Shown: piece by piece, positions 14,500 through 53,712 of the stretch | Layout of the letters: each line of letters begins with the position of its first letter | How positions within the stretch are numbered: the stretch's first letter is position 1 | NCBI GenBank assembly: GCA_903921325.1 | Contig: CAIXPL010000027.1 | Location: forward strand, 1-64,000 | DNA: 64,000 nt | DNA from: an uncultured Pseudomonadota bacterium | GTDB taxonomy: Bacteria; Pseudomonadota; Gammaproteobacteria; Burkholderiales; SG8-39 | Direction: 5' to 3' | Made by a program: the position numbers and the translations under genes | The notes under the pieces: model-generated | What the model saw: only the letters and a program-made list of their open reading frames with translations | What the model was told of the DNA's origin: nothing | Databases searched by the model: none

Positions 14500-15384
14500 G
14501 TGCATGGGCGCTTTGCGCCCTCGCCCTCCGGTCCACTGCATTTCGGATCGCTGGTGGCCGCACTGGGCAGCTATCTCGATGCTCGATCGCAAAAGGGCAC
14601 GTGGTCGCTACGAATCGAGGATCTGGACCAGGCGCGCGCGCGACCCGAAGCCACCAGCGGAATTCTGCGCACCCTGGAGCAGCACGGGTTGCTGTGGGAT
14701 CAGGAAGTGGTGATTCAGAGCGAGCGCACCACGGCCTATCAGGATTGGCTCGATCGCCTTGGCGATCAGGTGTACGGCTGTGCCTGCAGCCGCCGCGAAA
14801 TTGCCGGACTGGGTGATCTGACACGCTATCCGGGCACTTGTCGCGACGGCTTGCCGCCAGGCCGCAGCGCCCGCGCGCTGCGTGTGCGTATTCCCGCCGG
14901 CGTGATTGAATTTGAAGATCGCATCCGGGGCACGGTGCGCGAGGATGTACAGGCGCAGGTCGGCGATTTTGTGGTGCAACGCGCCGATGGTCCGTTCAGC
15001 TACCAGTTTGCGGTCGTCGTTGACGATTGGGATGCCGGCGTGACTGAGGTCGTACGCGGTGCCGACCTGCTCGATTCAACCGCACGCCAGATTGCCCTGC
15101 ACCGATTGCTCGGCCTGCCGCCACCGCACTACGCGCACCTGCCCCTCGCGGTCGACGCATCAGGCAGAAAATTATCGAAGCTCACTCGTGCCCCGGCACT
15201 GGACGCAGGCGAACCGGGCGCGGCAGTGGCTACCGCGTTGCGTTTCCTCGGGCATCCGCCGCCAACGGAACTGAACGGTGCAGCGCCCGCCGAACTGCTC
15301 GCCTGGGGCTGCGCGCATTGGGACATTGCACGCGTGCCGCGTACGCCGCAGCAATCCATCGATCCGACCGGCGGGGCGACATGA
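14500..15384 (+). CDS. gluQ: Glutamyl-Q tRNA(Asp) synthetase
   Basis: 294 residues. A truncated GluRS paralogue that attaches glutamate to queuosine at position 34 of tRNA(Asp). The HIGH-like motif is PSPSGPLHFGS (~9-19), the KMSKS-like motif is KLSKL, and a zinc site includes CACSRRE and YPGTC. It lacks the anticodon-binding domain of GluRS, as expected. GTG at 14500 (VHGRFAPSPSG) is the start closest to the family N-terminus, though no strong ribosome-binding site is seen. Its stop codon lies in the first unit of a 37-bp tandem repeat. Confidence 0.92.
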   Translation: MHGRFAPSPSGPLHFGSLVAALGSYLDARSQKGTWSLRIEDLDQARARPEATSGILRTLEQHGLLWDQEVVIQSERTTAYQDWLDRLGDQVYGCACSRREIAGLGDLTRYPGTCRDGLPPGRSARALRVRIPAGVIEFEDRIRGTVREDVQAQVGDFVVQRADGPFSYQFAVVVDDWDAGVTEVVRGADLLDSTARQIALHRLLGLPPPHYAHLPLAVDASGRKLSKLTRAPALDAGEPGAAVATALRFLGHPPPTELNGAAPAELLAWGCAHWDIARVPRTPQQSIDPTGGAT

Positions 15385-15486
15385 TGCACTCAGTCCAGCT
15401 CGGGGCGGCGAGGCGACATGATGCGCTCAGTCCAGCCCCGGCCGGCGAGGCGTCTTGATGCACTCAGTCCAGCCCCGGGCGGCACA
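15376..15486. repeat. 37-bp tandem repeat (3 units) joining two convergent gene ends
   Basis: Units start at 15376, 15413 and 15450 with a core of ATGATGCRCTCAGTCCAG (third unit TTGATG). Unit 1 contains the gluQ stop (TGA 15382-15384) and unit 3 the thioesterase stop on the other strand (15464-15466). Each unit repeats both stops: plus-strand TGA at 15382, 15419, 15456 and minus-strand TGA at 15466, 15429, 15392. Because 37 is not a multiple of 3, the stops fall in all three frames. Confidence 0.93.
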
Positions 15487-42175: not shown

Positions 42176-42877
42176 ATGAAGACATTTCCGTATGCACGCG
42201 CACTGATCGTGGGATCGGGGGCGGGGCTGAGCGCATCGCTCGCCCGGCAACTGTCGCACGCGGGCGCACAGGTGACACTGGCCGCACGCAATACCGACAA
42301 GCTCGCTGACCTGAGCCGCCAGATCAATGCCCGCACGTACTCGTGTGATGCGAGCGACCGGGCAGCAGTGGCAAACCTGTTTGAGGAACTCGATCGCGCC
42401 GATGCAACGCCCGATCTGGTGATCTTTAACCCGAGCGCTCGCGCACGCGGGCCGATCGCCGAGCTTGACCCGCACGATGTCGAGCGCGCACTGGCTGTCG
42501 GCGCATTGGGTGGTTTTCTGGTTGCGCAGCAGGCCGTGCGTCGCATGCTGCCGAAGGGACATGGCGCCGTGGTGTTCACCGGGGCCTCGGCGAGTGTCAA
42601 AGGGTTTGCGCTGTCGGCTCCCTTTGCAATGGCGAAGTTTGCGCTGCGTGGCCTCGCGCAGAGCATGGCGCGCGAGTTGCACCCCAAGGGCATCCACATC
42701 GGGCATTTCGTGATCGATGGCGGCATCCGCAGCGCCCAGCGGATCGTGCCGACCGATGCCCCCGACTCGCTGCTCGACCCCGAAGCGATTGCACAGAGTT
42801 ATCTCGACCTGCTGCGACAACCCCGCAACGCCTGGACCTGGGAAGTGGAACTGCGCCCCTGGGTCGAACGATTCTGA
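42176..42877 (+). CDS. SDR-like protein with Tyr-to-Phe change in the catalytic motif
   Basis: 233 residues. Rossmann SDR fold with IVGSGAGLSASLA instead of TGxxxGxG, NPSA instead of NNAG (85-88), and FAMAK at 150-154 where YxxxK is expected; the Ser region (TGASASVKG) is kept. Related sequences with FAMAKFALRGLAQSMARELHPKGIHI-like stretches form a recognisable SDR subgroup, so the change may be ancestral rather than damage. The stop codon is the first unit of a 17-bp tandem repeat. Confidence 0.86.
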   Translation: MKTFPYARALIVGSGAGLSASLARQLSHAGAQVTLAARNTDKLADLSRQINARTYSCDASDRAAVANLFEELDRADATPDLVIFNPSARARGPIAELDPHDVERALAVGALGGFLVAQQAVRRMLPKGHGAVVFTGASASVKGFALSAPFAMAKFALRGLAQSMARELHPKGIHIGHFVIDGGIRSAQRIVPTDAPDSLLDPEAIAQSYLDLLRQPRNAWTWEVELRPWVERF

Positions 42878-43010
42878 GACCGGCAAAATTCTGAAACGCT
42901 CAATATTCTGAGACGCCCAAGATTCTGAGAGGCGCAAGATTCTGAGACGCCCAAGATTCTGAGAGGCGCAAGATTCTGAGAGGCGCAAGATTCTGAGACG
43001 CTCAATATCC
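42870..43010. repeat. 17-bp tandem repeat (8 units) starting at the SDR stop codon
   Basis: ATTCTGA recurs every 17 bp with TGA at 42875, 42892, 42909, 42926, 42943, 42960, 42977 and 42994. The first TGA is the stop of the SDR gene. Two main variants, GAGACGCCCAAGATTCT and GAGAGGCGCAAGATTCT, are interleaved; the outer units are more diverged. Since 17 is not a multiple of 3, stops occur in every frame. The repeat fills most of the 184-bp gap before the CmcJ-like gene. Confidence 0.96.
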
Positions 43011-43061
43011 GCACAAAGCAGCATGGAACCGTTACCGCTGACTGCCTGAGAGAAATCCGTC

Positions 43062-43886
43062 ATGTCCCTCAATCCATCGCTAGCCCACCGTGATGCCGCG
43101 CTGTCCTTTGTTGACCCCAGTGGCGGCCGCCCGGCGGTGTATCTGGACGAAACCGAATCCACCGCCACCCGCGCCACCGGCCGCTACGAGTGGCGTACCG
43201 TACCGATTCACGACGGGCGACCGATCGCGCGTGCCCTGTCGATCGACCGCGAAGGCTTTGCGCTGCTCAACCATGATTCGGCAGTAGGCAATTTCTACGA
43301 CGATCAGGAAGTCAATGCCGTCTATGTCTCCGAGCTGGAGCGCTTCATCGGGGCACTGCTCGGCGCCGATAAAGTGCTGATGTTTGATCACACGCGGCGC
43401 ACCGGCCCGGCGGAGGACACCAGCGGATTACGCACCCGTCAACCGGTGCGGCGCATCCATAACGACTACACGCCGAAGTCCGGCCCCCAGCGCGTGCGCG
43501 ATCTGCTGCCAGCCGATGAGGCCCGAGCGCGCCTCACCCGGCGCTTTGCCATCATCAACGTCTGGCGCCCGATGCGCGCACCGTTGCAGGAAGCCCCACT
43601 CACCTTGTGTGATGCCACCACTGTCCGAGCAAGCGACTGGGTCGGTACCGATCAGGTCTATCGCGATCGTGTGGGCGAGACCTACGGCCTCACCTGGCAG
43701 GAAGCGCAAAGCTGGTATTTCTTTCCCGACATGCACTGCGACGAAGTGGTGCTGATCAAGTCCTATGACTCGGCTGAAGACGGCCGTGCCCGCTTCTGCG
43801 CCCATTCGGCGTTTGATGATCCGCTTACGCCGGCCAATGCGCCGCCGCGTGCGAGCATCGAAGCGCGGCTACTCGCGCTCTTTTAG
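43062..43886 (+). CDS. CmcJ/NvfI-family oxidoreductase
   Basis: 274 residues. Matches the CmcJ/NvfI/AsaB family, known from fungal and actinobacterial secondary metabolism (for example CmcJ in cephamycin 7-alpha-methoxylation). Family landmarks visible: SVDREGF-like SIDREGFALLNHDSAV, VRRIHNDYTPKSGPQRV with a likely metal-ligand His133 and Asp135, NVWRPM, and WYFFPDMHCDEVVLIKSYDS. Iron/2-oxoglutarate dependence is suggested for relatives but not shown for this one. It stands after the SDR pair and the 17-bp repeat; function in this cluster unknown. Confidence 0.83.
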   Translation: MSLNPSLAHRDAALSFVDPSGGRPAVYLDETESTATRATGRYEWRTVPIHDGRPIARALSIDREGFALLNHDSAVGNFYDDQEVNAVYVSELERFIGALLGADKVLMFDHTRRTGPAEDTSGLRTRQPVRRIHNDYTPKSGPQRVRDLLPADEARARLTRRFAIINVWRPMRAPLQEAPLTLCDATTVRASDWVGTDQVYRDRVGETYGLTWQEAQSWYFFPDMHCDEVVLIKSYDSAEDGRARFCAHSAFDDPLTPANAPPRASIEARLLALF

Positions 43887-52855: not shown

Positions 52856-53644
52856 TCAAGGCTTCTTGCGTGCGAACCCGGATTCAAGCGACCAGTCATT
52901 CTGCGCGAACAGATCGTTGAGCATCGTCTGGTAGGGCAGCTCAAGGGTCAGTTCCAGTGCCGCAGCACGGCGCTCCAATGCGGCTCGCCCCAGGCGCAGG
53001 CCGCGCCCTTTGAGCACGAACACGATCGTGTTGACCCCGTTGGCCGCGGTCAGCGTCACCGCCGGGCGATCGAACGCCCGCTCGATACGAGTGGTGCACT
53101 TCTCGCGCTGCGGATCGTCGGCCATGAAATTCTGGATGAACACGCCGCCCTCGCGCAGCCCGGCGGCACAGGCGCGGTAGTAGCGTTCACTGGATAGCGC
53201 ACGCACCGAGCGGCCATCATCAAAGGCATCGAGCAGCAGCGCGTCACAGGACGCCGGATGTTTGGGCACATGGTCAGCCCCATCGGCCAGAATCACCTCC
53301 AGGCGGGCGCTGTTGTCAGGCAGACCAAACCAGGAGCGCGCTGCGGCAATCACGCGCGGATTGATTTCAATCGCGCGTACGCGGGTGCGCGGGCGCTTGC
53401 TGTGCACGAAGCGTGGAATCGAGCCGCCACCCAGTCCGATCACCAGCAGGTCGGCCGGTTCGGGCACGAGCAGCAGGTAGGCCATCACCGCGCGGGTGTA
53501 GTGCAGTTCGAGCGCATCGGGATTGGACAGACGCATTGCACTCTGGATGGCATCGCCCCCCAGATGCAAATGCCGCACACCGCGAAACTCGCTGATCTCG
53601 ACACTGGCAAGGCGGCTGGTCACCCAGCGCCGCAGCGAGGTCAC
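52856..53644 (-). CDS. Spermidine-synthase-like methyltransferase-fold protein
   Basis: 262 residues. Polyamine-aminopropyltransferase fold: LLVIGLGGGSIPRFV, VRAIEINPRVIAAARSWFGL, VILADGADHV and LLLDAFDDGRSV (catalytic Asp region). The N-terminal beta domain is short, as in SpeE-like proteins of unassigned function, so spermidine synthesis is not certain. GTG at 53644 lies inside a 29-bp tandem repeat and overlaps one of its TGA triplets (GTGA); a second in-frame GTG is at 53623. Follows the molybdopterin gene by 54 nt. Confidence 0.82.
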   Translation of the reverse strand: MTSLRRWVTSRLASVEISEFRGVRHLHLGGDAIQSAMRLSNPDALELHYTRAVMAYLLLVPEPADLLVIGLGGGSIPRFVHSKRPRTRVRAIEINPRVIAAARSWFGLPDNSARLEVILADGADHVPKHPASCDALLLDAFDDGRSVRALSSERYYRACAAGLREGGVFIQNFMADDPQREKCTTRIERAFDRPAVTLTAANGVNTIVFVLKGRGLRLGRAALERRAAALELTLELPYQTMLNDLFAQNDWSLESGFARKKP

Positions 53645-53712
53645 TTGGTCACCCAGCGTCGTAATGAAATCACCTGGTCACCCGGCACTGCAACGAGCTC
53701 ACCCAGTCACCC
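53616..53712. repeat. 29-bp tandem repeat (4 units) at the molybdopterin-gene end
   Basis: GGTCACCC (AGTCACCC in the last unit) recurs at 53618, 53647, 53676 and 53705. On the coding (minus) strand the gene's terminal GTGACTGGGTGA is repeated, with TGA at 53701, 53672 and 53643. The last TGA overlaps the GTG start of the spermidine-synthase-like gene. Period 29 is not a multiple of 3, so the three stops occupy three frames. Confidence 0.92.

Follow-up and report, generated by a model that had tools for sequence, protein, structure and literature searches.

The short-chain dehydrogenase (SDR) gene at positions 42176 to 42877 of the forward strand (233 aa; Pfam adh_short, E 1.9e-27) ends inside a tandem repeat that carries a TGA in every copy, and the question raised by this locus is whether such an array serves the termination of translation or is a harmless product of duplication at a gene end. 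The evidence presented here, from the 64-kb stretch of DNA that we call the window and from wider samples, points to the latter. The array is very probably a lineage-specific minisatellite, produced by ordinary replication slippage at a position where additional copies are harmless, and not a special stop device.

Structure of the array

The array occupies positions 42870 to 43005 of the forward strand and is resolved by TRF as 8.0 copies of a 17-bp unit, with 85% matches and without indels, at a score of 188; random sequences of the window's length (64 kb, first-order, n = 30) scored no higher than 68. The eight head-to-tail units described in the initial annotation are thereby confirmed. In unit 1 (GATTCTGA), 8 nt are coding; they are the final 8 bases of SDR sequence, the stop codon included. 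With the ORF end at 42877, the genuine SDR stop codon (42875 to 42877, forward strand) lies within this unit, as had been proposed. TGA starts at 42875, 42892, 42909, 42926, 42943, 42960, 42977, and 42994 and, because the unit contains a TGA and its length is not divisible by 3, the eight positions place stops in all frames, again in agreement with the earlier description. Beyond the SDR stop, the three frames next meet a stop after 48, 31, and 14 nt.

The heptamer ATTCTGA (unit bases 2 to 8) is invariant in all eight copies, while 6 of the 17 unit positions vary and six distinct sequences are found among the eight units. The two interleaved unit variants noted at the outset therefore hold in part: two tail variants do alternate in units 3 to 7, but the array has six sequences in all. 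When read with a 51-bp period, the same array scores 209 in TRF, against 188 at 17 bp, and this higher-order period together with the interleaved variants upholds the view that duplication was repeated and not a single slip.

Origin from a conserved gene end

Comparison with homologs places the source of the unit in the gene itself. In 63 of 69 homologs, the SDR match covers the whole C-terminus and a stop codon follows at once; 60 of those 63 have a C-terminal Phe, and 21 of them carry the identical TTCTGA at the gene end. Such conservation among homologs marks the SDR gene end as old and the array as derived from it. Two genomes of the same genus (G001 and G002) carry the upstream gene, the SDR gene (70% identical), and the downstream gene in the same order, with an SDR-to-next-gene spacer that is 54 bp long and repeat-free, whereas it measures 184 bp here. 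The latter length equals 65 + 7 × 17 bp, that is, 65 bp and seven additional units, the remainder of the spacer up to the next gene lying at 43006 to 43061 (forward strand). That next gene (43062 to 43886, forward strand; 274 aa) is a conserved neighbor in both same-genus genomes searched, at 68% identity, and matches no Pfam family at E 0.001. The array is absent from both of these genomes and from all 68 SDR homolog 3′ flanks that could be read, the remaining homolog of the 69 (L100) being cut off before its stop. The comparison with the empty site shows that a gene's own last codons are able to seed a minisatellite.

Very probably, a 17-bp stretch made up of the last 8 SDR bases and the 9 bases beyond was duplicated by replication slippage, and the array was then enlarged by further duplications of single and multiple units. 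A tandem duplication of any length that straddles a stop codon leaves the protein unchanged, since the native codons still lead into the first copy and the stop within it is the native one, and such arrays would therefore be tolerated by selection. We infer that slippage was the mutational step and that the array is close to neutral; of the roles first suggested for the locus, a replication-slippage origin is supported.

Arrays spanning stop codons in the window and across the genome

The initial annotation saw the same architecture at two other gene ends in the window, and both of these arrays are real, but their arrangement is not that of the SDR locus. The second array (15369 to 15483, no strand assigned; 37 bp × 3.1) covers both stop codons of a convergent gene pair, and the third (53616 to 53712, reverse strand; 29 bp × 3.3) runs over the stop codon that ends a molybdopterin oxidoreductase gene and over the start called for the gene after it. 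Same-genus homologs of the two convergent genes align 11 and 5 to 6 residues short of their ends, so that the second array may have given both genes new ends. At the third array, the gene end aligns to residue 665 to 666 of 667 in the same-genus genomes.

Arrays were counted by TRF in a genome sample of 2.064 Mb (46% of the genome, with the 64-kb window included), for which genes were called by our own script and not by a standard annotator. The main count comprises arrays with periods of 10 to 100 bp and a score of at least 50 that are not wholly coding, and the limit on the period afterwards dropped two 312-bp arrays that open contig C8 and look like a repeat protein split by the gene caller. 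The 312-bp repeats in question extend over 2.2 kb at the contig end (C8:1-2201, in L168) and probably belong to a large repeat protein.

Among the 71 noncoding or boundary arrays in this sample, 19 span a stop codon, and whether this number is high depends on the null model. Uniform placement of single units over noncoding and boundary positions gives 8.9 expected; outside the window, with the two 312-bp arrays still in, the same kind of null gives 9.6 expected against 18 observed (P 0.004), and in a smaller first sample of 1.264 Mb, it gave 4.8 expected against 5 observed outside the window. Restricting uniform placement to nondivergent gaps of at most 200 bp raises the expectation to 16.9. 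When each array is confined to the gap in which it lies, less the length of its additional copies, so that the gap sizes are themselves inferred, 18.3 stop-spanning arrays are expected against the 19 observed; outside the window, the figures are 16.1 and 16, and at a score of at least 80, they are 10.8 and 14 (P 0.11). Stop-anchored arrays can thus look purposeful, but the apparent anchoring hinges on the null model, and the geometry of the gaps accounts for the excess. A slippage signature specific to gene ends, as was initially suggested, is not borne out, since the roughly twofold excess under the uniform null vanishes upon conditioning on the gap.

The comparison DNA consisted of Azospirillum and Sinorhizobium plasmid stretches, one Cupriavidus stretch, a sample of G002, and the homolog loci. 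Under the gap-conditioned null, it yields 4.6 expected against 4 observed stop-spanning arrays (n = 44 arrays), and the stop-spanning share is higher in the genome studied here (19 of 71 versus 4 of 45; Fisher P 0.03).

A depletion of periods divisible by 3 at stop codons had been set as a test of the locus, and it is absent: 8 of the 19 stop-spanning periods are divisible by 3, as are 21 of 44 for arrays that touch neither a stop nor a start. Inside genes, the proportion is 83 of 96, and this predominance of triplet periods is as purifying selection predicts. For bacterial satellites in general, PMC6749651 describes a predominance of repeat lengths divisible by 3, which it relates to coding repeats.

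The distribution of arrays over gap types fits tolerance as well. With a score of at least 60, convergent gaps hold 17 of 61 arrays but 13% of noncoding bases (P 0.002), whereas divergent, promoter-bearing gaps hold 9 of 61 arrays but 29% of noncoding bases (P 0.011); this over- and under-representation follows if duplications persist in gaps that lack a promoter and at positions that leave the protein unaltered. Stop-spanning arrays also cluster by contig (P 0.00025), with six on the 140 kb of C24 that were sampled (L181 to L187), where 1.3 would be expected from length, three in the window, and none on 400 kb of C37, and this regional clustering is part of why the window holds three. All 71 arrays taken together are not clustered by contig (P 0.13).

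Two further arrays from the survey may be mentioned. A 44-bp × 3.7 array at C1:63157-63321 (in L151) overlaps the 3′ ends of a convergent gene pair in the first gene calls, of which a second calling kept one, and a 71-bp × 3.2 array with 95% match at C16:398272-398496 (in L127) occupies most of a 251-bp spacer.

Possible roles of the array

The presence of an intact TGA in eight of eight units makes a backstop conceivable, in which the extra stops would catch readthrough or frameshifted ribosomes at the SDR end and selection would keep a TGA in each copy. We consider this very unlikely. The worst-frame next stop, at 48 nt, is nearer than in 97% of 1,648 genes, but the next stop in frame, which lies at the same 48 nt, is nearer than that in 33% of genes. 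For this array taken by itself, an invariant TGA is not remarkable (P 0.24), seven invariant positions in a row in a 17-bp unit arise by chance with P 0.17, and the triplet periods that should be depleted at stops under such a role are as frequent as described above.

An argument for a backstop comes from the stop-spanning arrays as a group, in which the stop triplet is kept in 32 of 42 later-copy cases, compared with 365 of 864 for other triplets. In an exploratory test of 9 arrays, from which 10 of 20 gene-array pairs were skipped for too few copies or indels, the stop triplet reached a mean rank of 0.75 with the first copy excluded, over 10 pairs of which two come from the 15369 array, whose genes overrun the homolog alignment; the empirical P against matched edge offsets from 37 intergenic arrays was 0.002. 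A base-by-base test, with three arrays left out by hand as their copies were shifted by indels, gives an excess conservation per base over 9 pairs of +0.151 for the stop itself, +0.074 for the codons that precede it, and −0.074 downstream.

Several observations weaken this argument. Some conservation extends to the codons immediately ahead of the stop, and part of the stop-triplet conservation is what concerted evolution would yield if selection acts on the first copy. As both genes at the 15369 array extend a few residues past their homologs, their stops may be there because the array holds stops, and in one of the ten pairs, at C1:63157, the stop is absent from all later copies. In the comparison DNA, one of the four stop-spanning arrays could be tested, with a rank of 0.55 and the stop not kept. 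The backstop suggested by the initial annotation draws on one exploratory result, the conservation of the stop triplet. It is likewise improbable that gene-end arrays at large are kept partly for useful stops, as a by-product of slippage turned into a multiframe translation backstop that is concentrated in some regions of the chromosome. Should the conservation of the stop triplet prove true in a larger sample, it would offer a route to testing selection for redundant stops in bacteria.

Copy number also sets the distance from the SDR stop to the next gene, and it could be speculated that the array tunes translational coupling or polarity in this way. The difference between 184 and 54 bp would be relevant to such a role, as coupling in E. 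coli reporters declines gradually from +50 to +350 nt according to the part of a review (PMC12548453) that treats it. However, an array that is missing from both same-genus genomes bears no sign of maintenance, and lower expression of the next gene would be a side effect unless selected. A selected spacer-length element is accordingly very unlikely; an incidental influence of spacer length on the next gene is possible.

Least credible of all is a regulator-binding or RNA element, such as a direct-repeat operator, a 3′ mRNA structure, or a terminator, even though eight regularly spaced direct repeats that end 56 bp before the next start codon might invite it. No other unit-like place is found in the genome of origin at up to 1 mismatch. 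RNA covering the array and spacer forms slightly less stable folds than its shuffles do (z +1.6, with 193 of the 200 shuffles equaling or surpassing it), and the opposite-strand RNA has a z of +0.5, so that the mRNA 3′ structure listed among the initial suggestions finds no backing in folding. Between 42700 and 43200, no terminator- or promoter-like sites were detected, an intrinsic terminator being taken as a G+C-rich hairpin followed by a T run, and Rfam returned two matches only, both under their gathering scores (E 0.33 and 0.7). RNA structure, a terminator or promoter, and a known RNA family were rejected on folding, the site scan, and Rfam, respectively.

In a search of 60 other genomes, the unit is matched at 1 mismatch in seven, at a single place in each, and no genome exceeds that number. 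At up to 3 mismatches, the genome of origin contains 102 unit matches compared with 27 for a reversed control, and the genome sample contains 41 compared with a mean of 38 for letter-shuffled patterns, 36 of the 41 lying wholly inside called genes. A dispersed repeat or regulon site was rejected, as matches at the level of shuffled patterns reflect composition.

Relation to known repeats

Bacterial minisatellites, or VNTRs, are head-to-tail tandem units of roughly 10 to 100 bp. The array agrees with this description in its eight tandem units of 17 bp, which are specific to one locus, lie in a spacer, and include unit variants, and in its difference between lineages, being absent from relatives. 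It departs from it in that the first unit holds the stop codon of the upstream gene, and the array is known from one genome of its species. On these sequence features, 42870 to 43005 would be a new locus of a known minisatellite kind that is predicted to be nearly neutral.

Repeats that overlap a stop codon are already in print, and the TAACTGA direct repeats of marine Beggiatoaceae are a close precedent. In the sections of MacGregor 2015 (PMC4679880) that describe them, these repeats have one orientation and place stops in three frames, 13 sets out of 169 over the genome overlap the stop codon of the upstream gene, and the remark is made that such repeats are of necessity at ORF ends. Multiframe stops and overlap with an upstream stop codon are thus shared with the array studied here, but one heptamer recurs at many loci in those accounts, in contrast to a 17-bp unit at a single locus, and TAACTGA does not occur in any of the eight units. 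Mycobacterial interspersed repetitive units (MIRUs), as summarized in a passage of PMC12548453, are also repeat units located at the borders of genes, which they affect little. Unlike the single-locus unit described here, with its TGA in each copy and its position at a stop codon, they are mobile, dispersed units that are inserted at start codons with a spacing of −4 nt and carry an ORF coupled there.

Short repeats of other kinds were seen near homologous SDR genes. In L084 (genome G013), a different repeat of 20 bp × 2 with 100% match begins right after the stop codon of the SDR homolog, and in L067, a 15-bp × 2.2 repeat is located farther downstream of the homolog.
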